The notes: a model not told the origin generated them from the sequence alone. A stretch of 64,000 nucleotides of DNA from Actinomycetota bacterium (GCA_009668945.1 SBEH01000003.1:62001-126000), one strand, 5' to 3'; shown: positions 15,182 to 23,665, counted from the first letter of the stretch. Made by a program: numbers and translations.

Positions 15182-15257
15182 GCCGACGTAGCTCAGCTGG
15201 TAGAGCAGCGCACTCGTAATGCGCAGGTCAGCGGTTCGAATCCGCTCGTCGGCTCCA
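15182..15257 (+). tRNA. tRNA-Thr (anticodon CGT)
   Basis: A complete 76-base cloverleaf folds with a 7-bp acceptor stem (GCCGACG/CGTCGGC), a D arm, an anticodon arm GCGCA-CTCGTAA-TGCGC with anticodon CGT (reads ACG), and a T arm AGCGG-TTCGAAT-CCGCT. The discriminator is T and the CCA end is encoded. Its 3' two thirds are repeated at 23617-23665, and a phage-type integrase gene lies beside it, so this gene is the attachment site of the element. Confidence 0.97.
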
Positions 15258-15258
15258 C
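15210..15258 (+). repeat. attL: tRNA-Thr 3' repeat copy
   Basis: This segment repeats at 23617-23665. The first 22 bases (15210-15231) are identical and cover the anticodon stem-loop and variable region, the normal crossover place for tRNA-targeting integrases. Three differences follow, in the T arm: C/G, A/G and G/C. Two of them are compensatory, so both copies keep a paired T stem. Confidence 0.92.
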
Positions 15259-15266
15259 GATTCTCC

Positions 15267-15296
15267 GCAGGTCAGAGGCTGAATCCTCTGGCCTGC
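15267..15296 (+). terminator. Terminator after tRNA-Thr
   Basis: A 12-bp stem with one G-T pair (15267-15278 with 15285-15296) and a 6-base loop is followed by a T-rich stretch (TTCGTTTCTTCC). It lies 9 bases after the tRNA and should end its transcript. It is inside the integrated element. Confidence 0.75.
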
Positions 15297-15344
15297 TTCG
15301 TTTCTTCCCCAAGCTGTCAGGGTGCACGCGCGTCATTGGACGCG

Positions 15345-16580
15345 TCATCTGGCCGCACGGACGGCGGCGCGTGCCTGTGCGAGCGTCTCGATCGCCTCGC
15401 GCTTGCGGTCGTCGAACGCATGTGCGTAGACGCGCAGCAGCACGTCGGGGGAGTGCCCGGTGATCGCTGAGATCGTCACGGCGTCGAACCCGGCCGCTAT
15501 GAGCTGCGAGACGAACGCGTGCCGCAGCAGGTGCGGCGTGATGGCGACCTTCTCCCGCTCGGCGAAGAGCCGGAAGCGACTCTCAAAGCGCGAGGGGGCG
15601 ATCATGCTGCCGTCAGGCTGTGCGCACACCCAATCGGCATCGGCGGTGTTCCCGCCGCGCCAACCCCGGCCGAAGGCAAGCCGCCGCTCGAGCTGGTCGG
15701 TGCGTGTCGTCTTGAGCCTTGCGGCCGTGTTCGCATCGATCGGCACCGTGCGCACCTTGCCCGTCTTGGTGGTCTCCCTGACGACAGGTCCATCGTCGCC
15801 GGGAGTCTGTGTGACTGACCGCCTGACCGTGATCTCCGCCGCATGTAGGTCCACGTCGCGCCATTGGAGCGCAAGCGTCTCAGAGCGCCGCGTGCCGAGC
15901 CACGCGGATAGCATCACGGGTACGGCGATTTCCGGCTCGCGTTCGCACGCGAGGGCTACGAAGCGCTCTACCTCCGCAACGTCCACGGCCCGTCTGCCGT
16001 TTCCGGTGCGCGGCACGTTCGGCCTTGCGGCCTTGCCCGCCGCCGGGTTGGCCGTGAAGTCGCCTTGCGTCTCGATCGCGAAGGTGAAGATCGCACGGAT
16101 GACGTTGTGCACCATCCAGATCGACGGGCCGGACAGCGCGCCGTCGCCGCCGCGTTGCCGGGCGCCCTTGCCTGCGAGCTTCGCGTAGAGCTCCTGGAGC
16201 GTCGTGGGCGTCACGTCAACCATGCGCATCTGGCCGATGTTCGGCTTGATGTTCGTCTCGATCGCGCCGGTGTAGCGCCTTCGCGTCGTGTTCGCGAGGT
16301 GGACGGGTGCCCACTTCTCGAGGTAGTAGTCGGCGTATCGCTCTACCGTCCACTCCTGACGCCGCTCGCGCTCGATGCCGCTCGCGTCTTTGCGGCTCTC
16401 GTGCTTCGCGATGAGCTCGAGACGGAGCGCCCCGGTGGTCTTCTCGGCCTCGGTGCGGTTGCGTGCCGTGAACGTGCGCGAGAGCCTCGCGCCGTCATCT
16501 GCCCTGCACTCGAAGCGGTAGCGGTCGCCCTCCAGGTGCCGCAGAGAGCCGCTCCCGTAGGTCCTACGAGTCTGTGTCAT
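15345..16580 (-). CDS. int: Tyrosine recombinase integrase
   Basis: The 411-residue protein has an N-terminal AP2/SAM-like DNA-binding part and a C-terminal tyrosine recombinase domain. The catalytic set is complete by eye: Arg231 (LGTRRSE), His350 and Arg353 (HLLRH), His376 (GHSP) and Tyr385 (RVYAHAF), with a Lys near 275. It would integrate and excise the element at the tRNA-Thr gene, which begins 87 bases away from its stop. The start ATG overlaps the stop of the upstream minus-strand gene and has GGGAGGTGA before it. Confidence 0.95.
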   Translation of the reverse strand: MTQTRRTYGSGSLRHLEGDRYRFECRADDGARLSRTFTARNRTEAEKTTGALRLELIAKHESRKDASGIERERRQEWTVERYADYYLEKWAPVHLANTTRRRYTGAIETNIKPNIGQMRMVDVTPTTLQELYAKLAGKGARQRGGDGALSGPSIWMVHNVIRAIFTFAIETQGDFTANPAAGKAARPNVPRTGNGRRAVDVAEVERFVALACEREPEIAVPVMLSAWLGTRRSETLALQWRDVDLHAAEITVRRSVTQTPGDDGPVVRETTKTGKVRTVPIDANTAARLKTTRTDQLERRLAFGRGWRGGNTADADWVCAQPDGSMIAPSRFESRFRLFAEREKVAITPHLLRHAFVSQLIAAGFDAVTISAITGHSPDVLLRVYAHAFDDRKREAIETLAQARAAVRAAR

Positions 16581-17221
16581 TTCGCTTCACCTCCCTTCCG
16601 TCGTCGGTAGTGCGCTTTCGCCCGGCACTTGTCGCCGCAGAACTCCCGCCGATCGGTCGCGTCTGTGGCGTCATACCTCTTCTCGCACACCGGGCAGATG
16701 GCGTACTTCCTGTCACCGTCGACTGCGACGGCGGCCTGCAGCCACATCGCCCCGGCTAGATCGCGGACGCGGTAGGAGAGGTACCCCTTCTGACATGGCA
16801 CGCGGCTCGGCACAACCTCGGGATTGATACCGTGTCTCGCCAGTCCTGCATTGATGAGGTCCGCCAGCGCGCCCTTGGTCTCCTCGCGCCTGCTTGAGAC
16901 GATCTCGCTGTCGAGCGCCTCGAAGAGCGCGACAGCCTCCTGCATCGCGTCGTGCTCGGTCGTCCAGACGGACAGGCGGTCGCCCTCAGGACTCAGCAGA
17001 GGGCCGTATTCCGCCATGAACTCGGCGAACGACGGCAAGTCACCTGACAGGTCGGCAAACCGGACGAACAGCGCGGGGTGCTCCTGGAGTGGGCGATACG
17101 GGAGGTCGGGGCACGTCCTGATCAGTGGGTCCGCCTCCGCATCGTCGTAGGCGATCTCGCCCACCGTCCACCAAGTGAAGTCCAGCATCTGTGCCGCTGT
17201 CCTGCTTCTCGTCGGTGTCAT
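16577..17221 (-). CDS. Unknown protein with C-terminal zinc finger
   Basis: The 214-residue protein is not recognised as a whole. Its last 45 residues hold a Cys4 arrangement (CPVC then FCGDKCRAKAHYRRRKG) that resembles the short zinc fingers at the ends of CGNR-type or other phage and actinobacterial DNA-binding proteins. The N-terminal part is acidic and mixed alpha/beta. It is in one operon with the integrase (4-base overlap) and would be the first gene from the minus-strand promoter at 17263-17292, so a role in excision control or early regulation is plausible but unproven. Confidence 0.7.
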   Translation of the reverse strand: MTPTRSRTAAQMLDFTWWTVGEIAYDDAEADPLIRTCPDLPYRPLQEHPALFVRFADLSGDLPSFAEFMAEYGPLLSPEGDRLSVWTTEHDAMQEAVALFEALDSEIVSSRREETKGALADLINAGLARHGINPEVVPSRVPCQKGYLSYRVRDLAGAMWLQAAVAVDGDRKYAICPVCEKRYDATDATDRREFCGDKCRAKAHYRRRKGGEAK

Positions 17222-17262
17222 CGGTAATCAACGCTCCTCCCCGTAGAATGGTCGCAGAACCG

Positions 17263-17292
17263 ATGATAGGCTAGGGGCTGGCACTAGGTCAA
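17263..17292 (-). promoter_or_regulatory. Minus-strand promoter for the zinc-finger/int operon
   Basis: On the minus strand TTGACC (17287-17292) and TATCAT (17263-17268) are separated by 18 bases. The 93-base divergent gap also contains two CTAG tetramers (17271-17274 and 17284-17287) inside the spacer, which could mark an operator for the adjacent Xre repressor. No clear plus-strand promoter stands out. Confidence 0.55.
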
Positions 17293-17313
17293 TAGGGTGG
17301 AGGTCGGAGTCAC

Positions 17314-17520
17314 ATGAAGCTCATGCAGCACATGCGGGAAGAGCGCGGATTGTCCAGGCGTAAGGTAGCGCAGCTCGCCGACATGGATCCCGCTCTCTAT
17401 GGGAAGGTCGAGTCTGGGCGGGTCCTCAGCGGAAATCAGCTCGAGCGCCTGGCGCGAGCACTCGGGTACAAGGGCGACCCGGCGGCGCTGCTCGAGGAAC
17501 TCAACGATGCCCGCGACTAA
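17314..17520 (+). CDS. Xre-family (Cro/CI-like) helix-turn-helix regulator
   Basis: The 68-residue protein is a lone HTH_3 domain (MREERGLSRRKVAQLADMDPALYGKVESGR), the size of small Cro-like or plasmid-type regulators. It starts 93 bases from the divergent zinc-finger/int operon, and GGAGG lies just upstream of the ATG. It probably controls the divergent promoters of the element. The 3' end overlaps the next gene by 14 bases. Confidence 0.9.
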   Translation: MKLMQHMREERGLSRRKVAQLADMDPALYGKVESGRVLSGNQLERLARALGYKGDPAALLEELNDARD

Positions 17521-17707
17521 GCCCGCCACCGTCCGCGCCGACGCCCTGCCCGACGTGATGACCGCGGCCGAGCTCGCGGCCTATGAGCGCGTGGACGTTC
17601 GCGTGATCCGGGCGGACCTGAGCGCCGGGAAGGTGCCGGGCGCGTACATGCGCGGCTCTCACTGGCGGATCGTCACGCGGACCTACCTGGACGCGGTGGC
17701 ATCGTGA
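17507..17707 (+). CDS. Excisionase-like winged HTH (HTH_17) protein
   Basis: The 66-residue protein contains MTAAELAAYERVDVRVIRADLSAGKVPG followed by SHWRIVTRTYLDAV, the pattern of MerR-like HTH_17/excisionase domains. Proteins of this type direct integrase to excision or act as small regulators. The ATG at 17507 lies in the end of the Xre gene, and the 3' end overlaps the next GTG start. Confidence 0.85.
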   Translation: MPATKPATVRADALPDVMTAAELAAYERVDVRVIRADLSAGKVPGAYMRGSHWRIVTRTYLDAVAS

Positions 17708-17967
17708 CGGCGTACGAGCTGCCCAACATCCTGCTCTGCGACGACCCGCGCTACCGGAACGAGGACCTCCAGGAGATCGGAGACGGTGAGCTCTTCGCCG
17801 AGAACGTCCGCGTTGAGCGCGCCCTGGCGGACGAGATCGCGCGGCCCCGGCCGCGCATCGTGCCCGTCCTCGACCATCGGAGCTTCATCCTTGCCGATGA
17901 GTGGCTCACCGCCCGGCTCGCAGGCGTCCGCGCCGAGATCGCCAGGCGCAAGAAGGTGGCCCGGTGA
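17704..17967 (+). CDS. Small protein of unknown function in element
   Basis: The 87-residue product (GTG start) is mixed charged with no recognised domain. It has an acidic N-terminal half and a basic C-terminal helix (ARLAGVRAEIARRKKVAR). GTGA overlaps at both ends tie it to the Xis-like and RepA-like genes, so it is translated with the replication module. Confidence 0.65.
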   Translation: MTAYELPNILLCDDPRYRNEDLQEIGDGELFAENVRVERALADEIARPRPRIVPVLDHRSFILADEWLTARLAGVRAEIARRKKVAR

Positions 17968-19133
17968 GCGACATCCTCGACCTTCTCGACGCGCCACTCG
18001 ACGCGCCGAAGGCCAAAGCAGCCGCACGTGAGCACGACGATCAGAGCATCGATGATGCGCAGGGCGTCGGCGTGCTGCTCTCCGATGTGACGGCTCAGTC
18101 GGTTGAGTGGCTCTGGTACGGCCGGATCCCGCTCGGGATGATCACCGTCCTCGACGGCGACCCCGGGCTCGGCAAGAGCACGCTCACGCTCGACCTCGCG
18201 GCGCGTGTCACCCGCGGCCTTCCGTTCCCGGATGACAAGCTGCGTGTCGAGCCGTCGGGTGTCGTGCTGCTGTCGGCCGAGGATGACCTGGCGAACACCG
18301 TGCGCCCGCGGCTCGACGCCGCTGGCGCGGACGTGTCCCGGATACTCGCGCTCCGGGAGGTCGTAGACGGCGATGAGAGACGGCCGCCGGTGCTGCCGGG
18401 CGATCTGGCATGGGTTCGCGCCGCTATCTCGCGCGTCGGGGCCCGGCTTGTCGTCATCGACCCGCTCTTCGCGTTCCTCGGCGGCAACATCGACACGAAC
18501 AAGGACGATCAGGTGCGGCGCGGGCTGCACCCCTTCATGCTGCTGGCCGCCGAGACAGGCGCCGCGATCGTGATCGTCAGGCACCTGAACAAGAACGGCG
18601 GCGGGAACCCGCTGTACCGGGGCGGCGGCTCGATCGGCATCGTGGGCGCGGCGCGCTCGGGTCTGCTTGTGGCGCGCGATCCGGGCGATCCCGACAAGCG
18701 CGTGCTCGCGTCGACCAAGTGCAACCTTGCGCCCGAACCGCGCTCGATCACGTATCACATCGAGCAGATCGGAGCGAGCTCGGCAGTCGTCTACGACGGC
18801 GTGTCGGAGTACGACGCAGCAAGTGCGCTCTCGGGGAACGCGATCGCACGCGATGAGGCCGAGGCGTTCCTGTTGAACGCGCTCGCTGACGGCCCGCTGT
18901 CCGCGAATGAGGTCAAGAAGCTCGCGCGCGAGGAGGGGATAGCCGAGCGGACGCTCTTCCGCGCGAAGAAGAAGGCCGGGATTGTCGCCAAGCAGCGAGG
19001 GCATCACGCGGGGTGGGTGTGGGCTCTTCCCGATGACGCGAACGACTCCACACACACACAACAACCCCTTGACATTCTGACAGCCTGGCACTCTGACTCA
19101 GATTGCCAGAGTGCCAGCGTGCCGCCGTTTTAG
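17964..19133 (+). CDS. RepA-like RecA-fold ATPase, replication protein
   Basis: The 389-residue protein is a RecA-fold NTPase of the RepA/AAA_25 hexameric helicase group found on plasmids and phages. Walker A is GDPGLGKST (residues 65-73), Walker B is RLVVID (161-166), and NKNGGGNPLYRGGGS is the conserved loop after it. The C-terminal region (about 300-360) reads as a winged-helix. It is expected to unwind the element's origin or load the host replisome. GTG 17964 overlaps the previous stop. The 3' end carries a perfect inverted repeat and a (CA)n tract that may be regulatory. Confidence 0.85.
   Translation: MSDILDLLDAPLDAPKAKAAAREHDDQSIDDAQGVGVLLSDVTAQSVEWLWYGRIPLGMITVLDGDPGLGKSTLTLDLAARVTRGLPFPDDKLRVEPSGVVLLSAEDDLANTVRPRLDAAGADVSRILALREVVDGDERRPPVLPGDLAWVRAAISRVGARLVVIDPLFAFLGGNIDTNKDDQVRRGLHPFMLLAAETGAAIVIVRHLNKNGGGNPLYRGGGSIGIVGAARSGLLVARDPGDPDKRVLASTKCNLAPEPRSITYHIEQIGASSAVVYDGVSEYDAASALSGNAIARDEAEAFLLNALADGPLSANEVKKLAREEGIAERTLFRAKKKAGIVAKQRGHHAGWVWALPDDANDSTHTQQPLDILTAWHSDSDCQSASVPPF
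19069..19117 (+). promoter_or_regulatory. TTGACA box with perfect 11-bp inverted repeat
   Basis: A consensus TTGACA (19069-19074) sits before a perfect inverted repeat of 11-bp arms (19085-19095 with 19107-19117) and an 11-base centre, all inside the last codons of the RepA-like gene and 31 bases ahead of the next ATG. The expected -10 place would overlap the left arm. It could be a repressible promoter for the downstream structural module, a terminator-like hairpin, or a replication origin element. The -10 hexamer itself is poor. Confidence 0.5.
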
Positions 19134-19147
19134 GAGAGGGTGGCGAC

Positions 19148-19360
19148 ATGTCTGACACTTCGCGTGACCTCTACCGCCACGAGCGCCGCACGGCCGTTCA
19201 CGATGCCCGGTGCTTCTACACCGCCGCCAACGATCCGCGCGCGACAGGCCGCGAGCGTCGACTGAATCACCTCTACTTCGAGGCGTCGATGCGCGTTGCG
19301 CGCCGGATGCGCGCACTTCTGCACGAACAGGACGCACCGGATGACGCGCGGCCGCCCTAG
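19148..19360 (+). CDS. Small charged protein, unknown function
   Basis: The 70-residue protein is Arg/His-rich and alpha-helical (RHERRTAVHDARCFYTAANDP), with no recognised domain. The ATG at 19148 has GGAGAGGGTGG in front. It is the first gene after the inverted repeat in the RepA-like gene and leads into the capsid module. Confidence 0.65.
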   Translation: MSDTSRDLYRHERRTAVHDARCFYTAANDPRATGRERRLNHLYFEASMRVARRMRALLHEQDAPDDARPP

Positions 19361-19420
19361 ATGCCCGGTCGCGAGCACGAACGGCAACGCATGAGGACTG
19401 CGCAGAGAAGGAGGACGAGG

Positions 19421-19687
19421 ATGACCGGCCGCACCGACACAAGGGACATGCTGCACGCTCGCGCTCAGTTCTACGAGTGCGACACGTTCGATGACTTCCT
19501 GGAGCAGCTCAGGGCGCAGCGCCTGTGTATCGGCGCAGCCCGCGCTCCCGGTTTGTTCCTGTCCCGCGCGAAACTCGAGCGCAAGCTTCGCGAAGCCCGC
19601 GATCTATTCGGGGACTCTAGCGTGCTCGAGTGGCTCGACGATCAGCTGAAATACCGTCCCCGTGAAGAGAAGGAGTCGAATCGATGA
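19421..19687 (+). CDS. Small protein before scaffold gene, unknown function
   Basis: I chose the ATG at 19421 because AAGGAGGACGAGG precedes it; the open frame continues upstream to 19361 without a signal. The 88-residue product is helical and charged. No family recognised. Its end overlaps the scaffold gene start by 4 bases. Confidence 0.65.
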   Translation: MTGRTDTRDMLHARAQFYECDTFDDFLEQLRAQRLCIGAARAPGLFLSRAKLERKLREARDLFGDSSVLEWLDDQLKYRPREEKESNR

Positions 19688-20106
19688 ACGAGCAGGAGCA
19701 GGCCGAGGTCGAGGAGCAGGCCGAGGTCGAGGAGCAGGCCGAGGTCGAGCCGGGTGCTCACGACAACGAGGCCGCGAAGTACCGGCGCAAGCTCCGCCAC
19801 GCGGAAGCGGAGCGTGACGCGCTCGCGGGACAGCTCGACGCCATGCGGCGCGAACAGATTGAGGCGGTGATCGCCGACAGGCTGCACCGTCCTGCTGACT
19901 TCTTCGAGGTGGGCGGTGCGTTCGACATGACCGCGATGCTCGACGAGTCCGGGTGCGTCGACAGCAAGAAGGTCGACGAACGGCTCAAGGTGATCGGGAC
20001 GGAGCGGCCGCATCTGCTCAAGCCCGCCGAAACTGGTTCCACAGGAATCCCCGCGAGGGGTACGGCGGATCCATCTGCCGCCTCCTGGAAGGATGCGATC
20101 TCGTGA
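19684..20106 (+). CDS. Putative phage capsid scaffolding protein
   Basis: The 140-residue protein has an acidic repeat N-terminus (AEVEEQ units), a coiled-coil-like charged helix (KYRRKLRHAEAERDALAGQLDAMRREQIE) and a C-terminal region with RPADFFEVGG and SWKDAIS. This acidic-coil layout immediately before a major capsid gene is typical of scaffolding proteins (DUF4355-like). It would guide capsid assembly and then leave the shell. No protease domain is fused. The assignment rests on layout and position. Confidence 0.7.
   Translation: MNEQEQAEVEEQAEVEEQAEVEPGAHDNEAAKYRRKLRHAEAERDALAGQLDAMRREQIEAVIADRLHRPADFFEVGGAFDMTAMLDESGCVDSKKVDERLKVIGTERPHLLKPAETGSTGIPARGTADPSAASWKDAIS
19702..19749 (+). 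repeat. 18-bp tandem repeat in scaffold gene
   Basis: Two exact 18-bp units (19702-19719 and 19720-19737) and a 12-base partial third encode Ala-Glu-Val-Glu-Glu-Gln. It makes the N-terminus strongly acidic. Confidence 0.9.
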
Positions 20107-20244
20107 GCGAGGGTGTAGGATGCGAGGCGACGGCGCACACCGGCCCGAGGCCTGGCGCGCTCGTCGACGCGGCTCCTGGTGAGCACCTGGACGACGCCTG
20201 TGGCGCTCCAGCGGACAGCACCCACCTGACCTAAGGAGCCCCTC

Positions 20245-21249
20245 ATGTTGCGCTCAGGTATCTCACCTGCGTTCCTGCCCGACCAGATCAGCGAGCTCGT
20301 CGTCATCCCGGTGCAGCGCGAGTCCGTCGCCATGCGCGTCGCGACCGTGCACAACACCGACCGGCACGAGTTCGTCTACCCGCTCGCGATCGCCGACCCG
20401 GCCGCCGCATGGACGGCCGAAGGCGCGGACATCACCGCCGCCGAGATCTCGACCGGCGAAGGCAAGTGCAACCCCTTCAAAATCGCGGGCCTTTCCGTGA
20501 TCTCCAACGAGCTCGCGGCCGACTCCTCGCCCGAGGCCGCCACGATGATCGGCCAGGGGCTCGCACGTGACATCGCCGCGAAGGTCGACGCCGCGTTCTT
20601 CGGCAACACCACCTCCAACGGCCCCGCCGGACTAGGCTCACTCGCGTCCGTCTCCACCACGCGCGCCAACTCGACGGCGTATGCCGTGGGGGATCGCGTG
20701 ATCGGCGCGGGCAAGCTCTTCGAGTGCACCGTCGCCGGTACGTCGCACACCTCGGCCCCGTCCTGGCCTGCTTCCGGCACCGTCACAGACGGCACCGTGA
20801 CGTGGAAGTTCCTCATGTGGATGCAGGCGAACGGCATCACGCCCGGCGCGTCGTGGGCGAACCTGGACCCGTTCCTCGAGGCCATCTACGCCAGCGAGGG
20901 CATGGGCGCGGACGTGACGGCGTTCTGCGCCAACCCGGCCGATGCGCTCACGCTCGCGCAGCTCAAGGAAGCGACCGGATCCAACAAGGCGCTCCTGCAG
21001 CCCGACCCGACGCAGCCGACCCGGCGCACCATCGCCGGTGTCCCGCTGTATGTCTCGCCGTCCGTGGCGGTCGGCACGGTGTGGGGTGTGCCTAAGGCGG
21101 CCGTGTACATGGTCGTCCGCAACGACACCACGCTCGAGGTCGACAAGTCGCGCTACTTCGAGAGCGACTCGACCGCCATCCGCGCGATCATGCGCGTCGG
21201 CATCGCGTTCCCGATGCCGGGCGCGGTCCAGCGGGTCTACATCGCCTAA
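20245..21249 (+). CDS. HK97-type major capsid protein with inserted beta domain
   Basis: The 334-residue protein matches the phage major capsid pattern: an N-terminal segment before the fold, NPFKIAGLSVISNELAADSSPEAATMIG, DIAAKVDAAFFGN, then a C-terminal half with TIAGVPLYVSPSVAVG and the ending IRAIMRVGIAFPMPGAVQRVYIA. Residues about 137-192 interrupt it with a module of the AYAVGDRV-x-LFECTVAGTS-x-APSWP-x-TDGTVTW type, a beta-rich carbohydrate-binding-like repeat often found on phage virion surfaces. AAGGAG precedes the ATG. It probably forms the shell of the element's own particles. Confidence 0.85.
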   Translation: MLRSGISPAFLPDQISELVVIPVQRESVAMRVATVHNTDRHEFVYPLAIADPAAAWTAEGADITAAEISTGEGKCNPFKIAGLSVISNELAADSSPEAATMIGQGLARDIAAKVDAAFFGNTTSNGPAGLGSLASVSTTRANSTAYAVGDRVIGAGKLFECTVAGTSHTSAPSWPASGTVTDGTVTWKFLMWMQANGITPGASWANLDPFLEAIYASEGMGADVTAFCANPADALTLAQLKEATGSNKALLQPDPTQPTRRTIAGVPLYVSPSVAVGTVWGVPKAAVYMVVRNDTTLEVDKSRYFESDSTAIRAIMRVGIAFPMPGAVQRVYIA

Positions 21250-21383
21250 GGTTCTTCGGGCCGCCCCTGTGCCTACTCCTCGCAGGGGCGGCCCGGCATG
21301 TCGCACGCAACGACGCGAGGGTACACCGATCGGGCGGAATCAAGCACGGACCACCGGGCACGACCAATGCGCAGGGAGGCAAC

Positions 21384-21764
21384 GTGAGCTCACTGACCGA
21401 GGCGGATGAGCTGCAACTGTGGGAGCTCCTGCCGGTCCCGGCGCAGCAGGCCGTTGCGCGGGGCGACGTGACGATCGCCGATCTCCTCGAGCGGATGACC
21501 GCGGCCTCCCGAAGCGAGCTGTGTCCGCGCTGTTGCGTGCGTCCGGTCTCCGTCCATCACCGGCACATCGGGTGGTGCGCGACGTGTGCGAAGAAGCTTG
21601 CCCTGGCGGCATCAGAGGAGCGTTACGCCGAGCTCAAGGCCGCGGACAAGGTGAACGCGGCGAAGATGCGCCTGAACCGCCTACGAGACGCACTCGAGCC
21701 GGGCCGGGAGCGCCACGCCGGGCCGGGTGCACGCGCCGCACGAGCGAGAGGGGAACAGCCGTGA
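21384..21764 (+). CDS. Small Cys/His-motif protein in capsid module
   Basis: The 126-residue protein (GTG start, GGGAGG upstream) contains CPRCC, HHRHIGWC and CATC, a likely zinc site, followed by a helical, basic C-terminus. I do not recognise it. Its place between major and minor capsid genes suggests a role in head completion or in regulation. The stop overlaps the next start. Confidence 0.65.
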   Translation: MSSLTEADELQLWELLPVPAQQAVARGDVTIADLLERMTAASRSELCPRCCVRPVSVHHRHIGWCATCAKKLALAASEERYAELKAADKVNAAKMRLNRLRDALEPGRERHAGPGARAARARGEQP

Positions 21765-21784
21765 GAGTGAGAGTGAGAGTGGGA
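21761..21784 (+). repeat. GTGAGA hexanucleotide repeat at a start codon
   Basis: Three exact GTGAGA units and one GTGGGA follow each other at the beginning of the minor capsid gene. Each unit supplies an in-frame GTG and encodes Val-Arg. Gain or loss of units would keep the frame but move the start and spacing. Confidence 0.85.
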
Positions 21785-22306
21785 GTGCGTGTGAGCAGTG
21801 TCAACCTAAGTGGTGTGCTCGCGAAGGCGGCGTCCGCCCAGAAGCGCGCGCTCACGATGACGACCGAGAAGGCTATCGCGGACACACGCCCCTACGTGCC
21901 GTATCGCGAGGGCGACCTTGCCGGATCGACGGGACGCTCCCCGGTCTCGACCGGGCGCATCATCTACGACCAGCCGTACGCCCGCGCACAGTACTACGGG
22001 CTGCCCGGCAAGTCTAGGCTCAGGCACCTGAAGGCGATCATGTTCTGGTTCGAGGCGTCGAAGGCCGTGAATACGCGCAAGTGGCGCGACGTCTACGCCC
22101 GCGAGTATGCTCGTGCGCTCAGCAGTGGCGGCGGCAGCCTCGGGGGCGGCCGTACCTGGTACTCGCCGAGCCGCTACTCCAGTAGCAACCCGTTCGGCTT
22201 CCGTGACGCCTCCGATCTCGATTACAGCGAGCTCGACCGGTTCTTCACGGGTGCCCTGCGCGACGGGTGGCGACTGGTCCGCGAGATACTGGACGGGCCG
22301 CTGTGA
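21761..22306 (+). CDS. Minor capsid protein (Minor_capsid_2-like)
   Basis: The protein of up to 181 residues carries RPYVPYREGDLAGS, GRIIYDQPYARAQYYG and WFEASKAVNTRKWRDVYAREYARAL, which match the minor capsid/head-closure family found next to phage capsid genes. The C-terminal part is Gly/Ser/Tyr-rich. Six in-frame GTG codons between 21761 and 21791 make the exact start uncertain; the first overlaps the previous stop, while the last gives a start directly at SSVNLSG. Confidence 0.8.
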   Translation: MRVRVRVGVRVSSVNLSGVLAKAASAQKRALTMTTEKAIADTRPYVPYREGDLAGSTGRSPVSTGRIIYDQPYARAQYYGLPGKSRLRHLKAIMFWFEASKAVNTRKWRDVYAREYARALSSGGGSLGGGRTWYSPSRYSSSNPFGFRDASDLDYSELDRFFTGALRDGWRLVREILDGPL

Positions 22307-22740
22307 CACTCACCTCGCGACAGGAGGCGTTCGTCCGTGGGCTCGTCTCCGGGATGACTCAGCGCAAGGCGTACCGGGCGGCCTACGGAGCCGAGCGCAT
22401 GGCCGATCGCACGGTCGACAAGCGCGCCTGTGAGCTGTTCGCGCGAGAGGCCGTGAAAGCCCGCTACGCGGCGCTTACGGATGAAGTGGCGGCATCGGTG
22501 CAGTGGGACCGTGCAAGGGCCGCACGCGAGCTCCTGGCCGTGATGGACGAGGCGATGGAGAAGATACGCGCGACACGGTGCCTGGAGGTCTCCTACACCG
22601 AGGCAGGTGCCCGGCAGGTGCCCGACCTCCCGCCCGATGCGACCCGCGCGCTCATCAGGGCCGTAGCCGAGCTCAACCGGATGTTCGGCGTCTACGAGGA
22701 GCGCGACGCGGATGCGCGGGTGGTGATCGTGTACCCGTAG
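22303..22740 (+). CDS. terS: Phage terminase small subunit
   Basis: The 145-residue protein begins LTSRQEAFVRGLVSGMTQRKAYRAAYGAERM-ADRTVDKRACELF, the classic HTH start of the Terminase_2 family. It recognises the packaging site and recruits the large terminase. The GTG at 22303 overlaps the minor capsid stop. No large subunit gene follows, which implies that the ATPase/nuclease must come from a helper phage, if packaging occurs at all. Confidence 0.9.
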   Translation: MTLTSRQEAFVRGLVSGMTQRKAYRAAYGAERMADRTVDKRACELFAREAVKARYAALTDEVAASVQWDRARAARELLAVMDEAMEKIRATRCLEVSYTEAGARQVPDLPPDATRALIRAVAELNRMFGVYEERDADARVVIVYP

Positions 22741-22836
22741 GCGCCCTCGCACGCGCGCGCGAGGCACGTACCCGCTTCCACCCCGCGCGCTGCGCCCAGG
22801 TGTACGATGTCGATGGAATGGCTACGGGAGGAAGAA

Positions 22837-23055
22837 GTGAGCGGTCGCGCCTGCGTGATCGACGATCGGGTCACCTTCTCGGAGGTCTGCTCCCGCTGTG
22901 TCCACTTCAGTCCGATCGTGGGCCTCGAGTGGCATTGTGACGCGTTCGACCGCGTGCCTGACGCCATCTGGGATGGCAAGAACGACCACACCGCTGAGTA
23001 CCCCGGCGATCATGGGATCCGGTTCGAGCCGAGGGTGCCCGTCGGAGAGGTATAG
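22837..23055 (+). CDS. Small Cys-rich protein, unknown function
   Basis: I placed the start at GTG 22837 since GGGAGGAAG precedes it; ATG codons at 22807 and 22813 are in frame but have no site. The 72-residue product has Cys residues in RACVID, VCSRC and WHCDAF that could bind a metal. TACGAT at 22803-22808 could be a -10 element giving the gene its own transcript. It is followed by a strong terminator. No family recognised. Confidence 0.65.
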   Translation: MSGRACVIDDRVTFSEVCSRCVHFSPIVGLEWHCDAFDRVPDAIWDGKNDHTAEYPGDHGIRFEPRVPVGEV

Positions 23056-23072
23056 CCTCCGCGCTCCGACCT

Positions 23073-23096
23073 GAAGCTCCGCCCTTGCGGGGCTTC
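23073..23096 (+). terminator. Rho-independent terminator of the structural module
   Basis: A 10-bp stem with one G-T pair (23073-23082 with 23087-23096) and a 4-base loop is followed by TTCGTTTC. It lies 17 bases after the Cys-rich gene. Confidence 0.8.
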
Positions 23097-23110
23097 TTCG
23101 TTTCTGCGAG

Positions 23111-23152
23111 CAAGCAACGAGGGGCCACCCGACCGGGCGGCCCCTCTGCTTG
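23111..23152 (-). terminator. Long hairpin ending the minus-strand gene
   Basis: An outer 6-bp stem (23111-23116 with 23147-23152) and an inner 12-bp stem (23119-23130 with 23135-23146) form a long hairpin. The single A-C mismatch on the plus strand becomes a G-U pair in the minus-strand RNA, so it fits best as the terminator of the minus gene that ends at 23166. Confidence 0.65.
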
Positions 23153-23165
23153 TCAGAGTGCTGTG

Positions 23166-23474
23166 CTACGCGCGAGCCCGACGCCTCTCATCGGCGCGGC
23201 GGTCGATCTCCCCGTACACCATCCGCCGGGCAGCTTCCTCTTCGTCGCTGTCACCGATGCCGCGAGATTCGAGGAGGAGCTGTGTTGCGGCGGCGTACTG
23301 ATCCACGTCGCCGTGCTCGAGGCGCTCTCTCCACGCGCGCCCCGCTTCCATGAGCTCATCCCACCGGCGGCGGAATCGCTCGTCGTCACCTGCGTAGATG
23401 CCCTCGGCCTGGATCACCGCGTTCAGGGCGTCCATCAGCTCGCACTTCTCATCGTGCAGTCTCATGCTGTCCAT
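23166..23474 (-). CDS. Small charged protein at the element's right end
   Basis: The 102-residue protein is acidic, Arg-rich and helical (RFRRRWDELMEAGRAWRERLEHGDVDQYAAATQLL). The ATG at 23474 has AAGGAGG upstream on the minus strand. The open frame extends upstream to 23711, but that part is only the antisense shadow of the tRNA repeat. No domain recognised. Minus-strand genes at the far end of satellites and prophages are often accessory or defence genes; nothing here proves that. The 317 bases between this gene and the next at 23791 hold attR, a terminator and a promoter. Confidence 0.65.
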   Translation of the reverse strand: MDSMRLHDEKCELMDALNAVIQAEGIYAGDDERFRRRWDELMEAGRAWRERLEHGDVDQYAAATQLLLESRGIGDSDEEEAARRMVYGEIDRRADERRRARA

Positions 23475-23616
23475 GCCCGTACCTCCTTCATCGTGCGTCA
23501 TGTGGCGCGTCATTCCTACTGTCCGTGACTGTATCTGACGGCTTCCTATCCCCTCGACCCTCGGCGCGACTGTGCTTGACTGTCGTTGACACGCCCCCGC
23601 TGACGCTCTGTATCCT

Positions 23617-23665
23617 GCACTCGTAATGCGCAGGTCAGGGGTTCGAGTCCCCTCGTCGGCTCCAC
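23617..23665 (+). repeat. attR: duplicated 3' part of tRNA-Thr
   Basis: The segment repeats 15210-15258 with three differences. It starts in the anticodon stem and lacks the 5' half, so it is not a tRNA gene. It is followed within 8 bases by a T-tailed terminator hairpin, as expected if this is the original chromosomal 3' end that was displaced when the element integrated. Confidence 0.92.

Follow-up and report, generated by a model that had tools for sequence, protein, structure and literature searches.

Can an integrated element that encodes its own capsid, but neither a portal nor a packaging motor, be a phage satellite, and to which kind of satellite would it belong? This question is raised by positions 15,210-23,665 of a 64,000-nucleotide stretch of an Actinomycetota bacterium genome (GCA_009668945.1, SBEH01000003.1:62001-126000; hereafter, the window), where an initial annotation had placed a candidate phage satellite. 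The present analysis supports this proposal. With a probability of about 0.8, judged from gene content and sequence comparisons, the element is an integrated, helper-dependent satellite similar to phage-inducible chromosomal islands (PICIs), which would own its shell and packaging specificity and rely on a helper phage for its motor, portal, and tail. This reading is carried by a gene layout like that of the Streptococcus satellites Javan257 and Javan339, by intact genes between attachment (att) repeats, by sister elements with swapped cargo, and by the grouping of the major capsid protein (MCP) with those of other small elements. Neither a portal or large terminase subunit (TerL) hidden among the unassigned genes nor the same block within a full-length prophage, which the initial annotation had named as evidence to the contrary, was found.

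Gene content and missing functions

Proteins were assigned by profile searches against Pfam (PF identifiers) and PHROGs (phrog identifiers). The features that carry the argument are the following (window coordinates, E-values in brackets):

15182-15257, + strand: tRNA-Thr (CGT), integration target (ARAGORN)
15210-15258, no strand: attL, the 3' end of tRNA-Thr; 49-nt repeat, single copy at the empty site of genome G023
15345-16580, - strand: tyrosine integrase (PF00589, 1.6e-17; phrog_1, 1.9e-54)
17314-17520, + strand: Xre-family regulator, divergent from the integrase gene (HTH_31, 3.9e-11); kept in sister elements
17507-17707, + strand: small helix-turn-helix (HTH) protein, putatively Xis/AlpA-like (phrog_10045, 4.7e-6; weak HTH_17 match)
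17964-19133, + strand: RepA-like ATPase of the AAA_25 family, putative replication protein (PF13481, 9.7e-38)
19684-20106, + strand: scaffold-like protein (phrog_12880, 2.8e-3, weak)
20245-21249, + strand: HK97-type MCP with an inserted domain (PF05065, 2.3e-25; phrog_10, 1.2e-29; tree; alignment)
21255-21297, + strand: strong hairpin 3' of the MCP gene (folding)
21815-22306, + strand: minor head or neck protein, Minor_capsid_2 (PF11114, 3.7e-13; phrog_556, 6.7e-21)
22303-22740, + strand: small terminase subunit, TerS (phrog_1595, 3.1e-21)
23617-23665, no strand: attR, 49-nt repeat

The direct-repeat boundaries proposed earlier stand. The two copies of the 49-nt repeat match at 46/49 positions (94% identity), and their spacing of 8,407 bp is the size of the element. 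The genome G023 contains the unoccupied site, where the tRNA lies ~195 bp from the gene that adjoins attR outside the element. About 15 genes are located between the repeats, with a coding density of 89%; the integrase gene is followed by the adjoining divergent regulators and then by the replication gene. The integrase is intact and the RepA-like ATPase is clearly recognised, as the initial annotation stated; of its Xre/Xis regulators, the former was confirmed by profile, and the latter shows just the weak matches listed above. The head genes had been described as all intact and overlapping. They are intact, and the recognised genes in general contain no frameshifts or stops, as noted before; however, only five junctions of the element overlap (by 4-14 nt), and the MCP gene is flanked by gaps of ~138 and ~134 bp, the second of which contains the hairpin.

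The block of scaffold, capsid, minor capsid, and TerS genes was confirmed by profiles, the scaffold gene mainly by its position. Scaffold homologues are found directly 5' of the MCP gene in the genome G013, in elements of Nocardia araoensis and Mycolicibacterium aichiense, and in six IMG/VR contigs, and the E-values of these relatives range from 1e-4 to 1e-17. The identity of the scaffold protein is thus weak by profile and well supported by context. The gene named minor capsid earlier does encode a phage head protein, although the name of neck or minor head protein fits better.

The largest element protein without an assigned phage function is 203 aa in length. To our knowledge, the known portals and TerLs are all larger than this; therefore, neither is hidden among the unassigned genes. 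In agreement with the initial annotation, gene sizes and profile searches revealed no TerL, portal, protease, tail, or lysis genes in the element. A search for a helper prophage, which had been proposed as a check, was carried out in the host genome (1.92 Mb, 99.26% complete, 32 contigs). The TerL and portal models PF03354, PF04860, and PF04466 gave no match there, an absence that is not final in a draft assembly. With the phrog_2 profile, a single weak match (1.1e-4) was obtained, to a conserved open reading frame (ORF) of 336 aa. Matches of this profile at about E = 1e-4 occur in most genomes of the family and represent one conserved ORF, mostly of ~330-420 aa, which was rejected as a TerL candidate and is probably RuvB-like.

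The MCP of the element is the sole HK97 capsid gene of the host genome. Such genes were found in 5/27 genomes of the family, and that of the G006 genome is located on a 4.9-kb contig together with a TerL-like match. The near-lack of prophage TerL and HK97 capsid genes in the family would be expected for a helper of external origin. Residence in the host genome is not required of a helper: phages foreign to the strain mobilise a capsid-forming PICI (cfPICI) in E. coli (PMC11389934).

Relatives of the assembly genes and sister elements

Among 50,697 phage records, the MCP was matched over most of its length only by M. aichiense records of ~11 kb (11/12). The Alyssa1 and WillG records encode TerS, an adaptor, a stopper, a serine integrase, a scaffold-like protein, MCP, and a tape-measure protein, and no TerL or portal was detected in them by the models run. 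The IMG/VR contigs L048, L051, and L053 (8-11 kb) partly repeat this pattern, with a P27-like TerS in the first two and an adaptor in all three (weak in L048). The MCP and scaffold genes are common to elements of 8-16 kb without TerL or portal from Mycolicibacterium, Nocardia, and IMG/VR contigs. Among the viral contigs, relatives were recovered with the MCP alignment as a query; scans with the MCP sequence by itself or with the AAA_25 and neck proteins revealed none. The MCPs of conventional prophages or portal-bearing contigs are distant (~25-32% identity); those of L052 and L054-L056, which adjoin portal genes, show 28-32% identity over the aligned part.

In a maximum likelihood tree of 22 MCPs, ten satellite MCPs accompanied by a separate scaffold gene form one group (support 92/91). 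Its sister group consists of phage MCPs from portal-bearing contigs and the long-branched MCP of an element at tRNA-Leu in the genome G022. The initial annotation had asked whether relatives carry the scaffold and MCP block inside a full-length prophage; the nearest ones are located in other small elements, and neither TerL nor portal lies near their block. One IMG/VR contig of 85 kb (L047) contains a capsid block at one end and TerL and portal genes ~37 kb away, and is a possible satellite-helper pair.

The TerS and neck genes point to a source other than that of the capsid and scaffold genes. The TerS is similar to that of the Streptococcus satellite Javan339 (44% over 86 aa) and also matches proteins of Streptococcus, Staphylococcus, and Lactococcus phages. 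The neck protein matches proteins of Streptococcus phages and of the satellites Javan257 and Javan292. In Javan339, a phrog_1595 TerS, and in Javan257, a phrog_556 protein, occupies the distal position in a layout of integrase, divergent HTH, and replication genes. In genomes of the same class as the host, relatives of the TerS are often the N-terminal part of proteins of ~565 aa, the remainder of which matches TerL in G237, the case checked; proteins of 563-568 aa in four loci (L031, L032, L033, and L034) resemble natural TerS-TerL fusions.

A search for the gene order in related genomes, also suggested earlier, showed that the integration module recurs at tRNA-Thr and that the cargo differs between the elements. 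Eight other genomes of the order contain integrases with 46-60% identity to that of the element. Among the three main elements, the integrases show 56-59% and the HTH proteins 65-70% identity, and the remaining genes vary. In G013, which belongs to another genus, an element of ~5.7 kb shares the tRNA-Thr site and its ricT/yaaT-like neighbour gene and encodes an integrase, its zinc-finger partner, Xre, HTH, a replication initiator, scaffold, MCP, and a DUF5681 protein. In G022, from the same genus, the tRNA-Thr element (~6.9 kb) has no MCP; it encodes an integrase, partner, Xre, HTH, replication initiator, DnaC-like loader, and a single Neck1/tail-completion protein. The elements of G094 and G021 (~8 kb and ~6 kb) contain no recognised MCP, and those of G097, G148, and G118 end at contig ends. 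In the G094 tRNA-Thr element, a protein (L093:7813-8310) is weakly similar to a phage ADP-ribosyltransferase (phrog_3895, 6e-6) and to head proteins.

These comparisons suggest a broader picture, which we put forward tentatively and hold to be somewhat less than an even chance. A satellite-specific capsid and scaffold lineage, long apart from its phage relatives, may have spread across Actinomycetota (Mycolicibacterium, Nocardia, and the lineage studied here), assembling a self-encoded shell on a portal and motor that are borrowed. The tRNA-Thr integrase family of this order would exchange such cassettes, ranging from a full shell through a neck alone to nothing, here joined with TerS and neck genes of the streptococcal satellite type.

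Satellite, interference island, or remnant

Helper use and mobilisation of the element can be pictured as follows. A helper phage would induce the element, the integrase would excise the unit, and the AAA_25 protein would support its replication. The scaffold and MCP could build a procapsid on the helper's portal, TerS would direct the helper's TerL to satellite DNA, and the neck protein may help to attach a helper tail to the filled head. The portal and TerL would be left to the helper because they have to function with each other as well as with the tail.

Several points weigh against this interpretation. The helper phage, induction, excision, and particles are all postulated from sequence data. 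The list of repeats, in which a pac or cos site was sought, contained no recognisable one. The AlphaFold model of the MCP (12 sequences) has a predicted local distance difference test (pLDDT) score of 40, which bears on assembly competence. The support of the satellite MCP group is moderate and its sampling small, and several of the IMG/VR relatives are fragments.

PICIs are known for interference with their helpers, and the scaffold, MCP, neck, and TerS genes might mainly disturb helper assembly and protect the host, with little transfer of the element itself. Poisoned or small capsids and a misdirected terminase would be the effects, and the G022 sister, which carries the neck protein only, is hard to see as a packaging set. 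This explanation is nevertheless unlikely: the integrase, the tRNA attachment, the wide spread with different cargo, and the position of TerS at the end of the block speak for the element's own packaging, and PADLOC gave no match for the seven unassigned genes.

The element could also be the remnant of a full phage at tRNA-Thr from which the genes for portal, TerL, tail, and lysis have disappeared. The loss of whole modules leaves the neighbouring genes intact, and the MCP does have phage relatives. However, neither broken phage genes nor a close full-length prophage relative, the marks of a defective prophage, were found; the same module with different cargoes occupies the same site in the sister elements; and the nearest capsid relatives are all small elements that group together in the tree. 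Conservation relative to the sister elements is higher at codon positions 1 and 2 than at position 3 in the integrase, MCP, HTH, and AAA_25 genes, the same pattern as in the host gene ricT, taken as a comparison case; it is weaker in the scaffold gene (0.53/0.67/0.50). Judged from these sequences, decay is unlikely, and a decayed prophage seems improbable as the origin of the element.

An autonomous small phage or capsid-using element with an unrecognised motor and portal is very improbable, given the small size of all unassigned proteins, although similar 11-kb records have been deposited as complete phage genomes.

Known satellites and minor features

Classical PICIs of Gram-positive bacteria share with the element an integrase with an att repeat at a tRNA, divergent regulators next to the integrase gene followed by a replication gene, and an own TerS in the absence of TerL, portal, tail, and lysis genes. 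Unlike the element, they have no MCP and use the helper's capsid. cfPICIs carry TerL, portal, protease, and connectors (PMC10690885). They resemble the element in their own capsid genes, TerS, and the lack of a tail, whereas the element has no TerL, portal, or protease; by its gene content, it is not a cfPICI. The actinobacterial Streptomyces satellites MulchRoom and MiniFlayer also encode capsid, scaffold, and TerS, in addition to TerL and portal (PMC10690885), which the element lacks. The Streptococcus satellites Javan257, Javan292, and Javan339 share its layout, with homologous neck or TerS genes in the distal position, but are annotated without MCP. The P4 markers alpha, psu, delta, and sid gave no match in the Pfam and PHROGs scans, no search having been aimed at P4.

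The closest parallels come from other actinobacteria. Mycobacterium candidate PICIs were defined by an integrase and MCP in a non-prophage region, some with scaffold and terminase genes, and include phiRv1 and phiRv2 (PMC10654092). With a capsid gene, replication genes, and an integrase at a tRNA, as in several of them, the element fits this loose definition; it differs in its host lineage and in the streptococcal-satellite type of its TerS and neck genes, and phiRv1 and phiRv2 are likened to it by gene content. The 11-kb M. aichiense records (OR387110-OR387121) share scaffold, TerS, connector genes, a homologous MCP (27-30%, tblastn), and the apparent lack of TerL and portal, but their serine integrase, P27-like TerS, head-tail adaptor, stopper, and tape-measure gene have no counterpart in the element. 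In view of these candidates and of the GenBank records with MCP and TerS, to speak of an uncommon design, as the initial annotation did, is too strong: the element belongs to a recognisable, little-studied class of actinobacterial phage satellites.

The design is intermediate, since classical PICIs take the whole shell and cfPICIs lack only the tail, whereas here shell and specificity would be owned and portal and motor borrowed. A prediction follows: portal and TerL are what a satellite has to obtain from a helper. The sister elements, whose cassettes differ at one and the same site, offer a natural experiment on which parts can be dispensed with. The element also adds satellites to a bacterial group for which none were reported in the literature searched. 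Judged from other members of its class, the host may belong to a Coriobacteriia lineage with affinity to OPB41/Anaerosomatales (background in PMC9686372).

The MCP insert (approximately residues 133-200, window 20641-20844) is missing from the aligned MCP relatives. It weakly resembles CBM_5_12 (PF02839, 1.5e-4, below the cut-off), and a 52-aa stretch shares 54% identity with a Bacillus phage Eldridge protein that one record annotates as a tail fiber. The insert is possibly a surface-exposed sugar-binding decoration. The hairpin after the MCP gene (-39.6 kcal/mol versus a shuffle mean of -29.3) may adjust late-gene expression. Stems of varied sequence were seen at a similar place in most of the relatives folded, without shuffle controls (L017, L005, L006, L049, L051, and L053).

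The remaining genes of the element are small:

16577-17188, - strand: 203-aa protein with a C-terminal zinc-finger-like motif, integrase partner gene (weak zinc-finger matches)
17704-17967, + strand: 87-aa protein, 31% identical to its counterpart in the G022 tRNA-Leu element
19148-19360, + strand: 70-aa protein (coding call)
19421-19687, + strand: 88-aa protein (coding call)
21384-21764, + strand: 126-aa zinc-ribbon-like protein, with counterparts in other satellites (G022 tRNA-Leu, G097)
22807-23055, + strand: 82-aa protein, no matches in profile searches and PADLOC
23166-23474, - strand: 102-aa protein, no convincing matches in profile searches and PADLOC

The 203-aa partner protein has homologues in L017, L094, and L096, and a similar gene is recognisable in several sister elements. 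The small HTH protein is 56-70% identical to its counterparts in sister elements, and the AAA_25 gene has a 61% identical counterpart in the G021 element. The G022 element at tRNA-Leu (L018), the second in that genome, is satellite-like, with a distant MCP and a primase-like gene, and contains homologues of both the 87-aa and the 126-aa genes.

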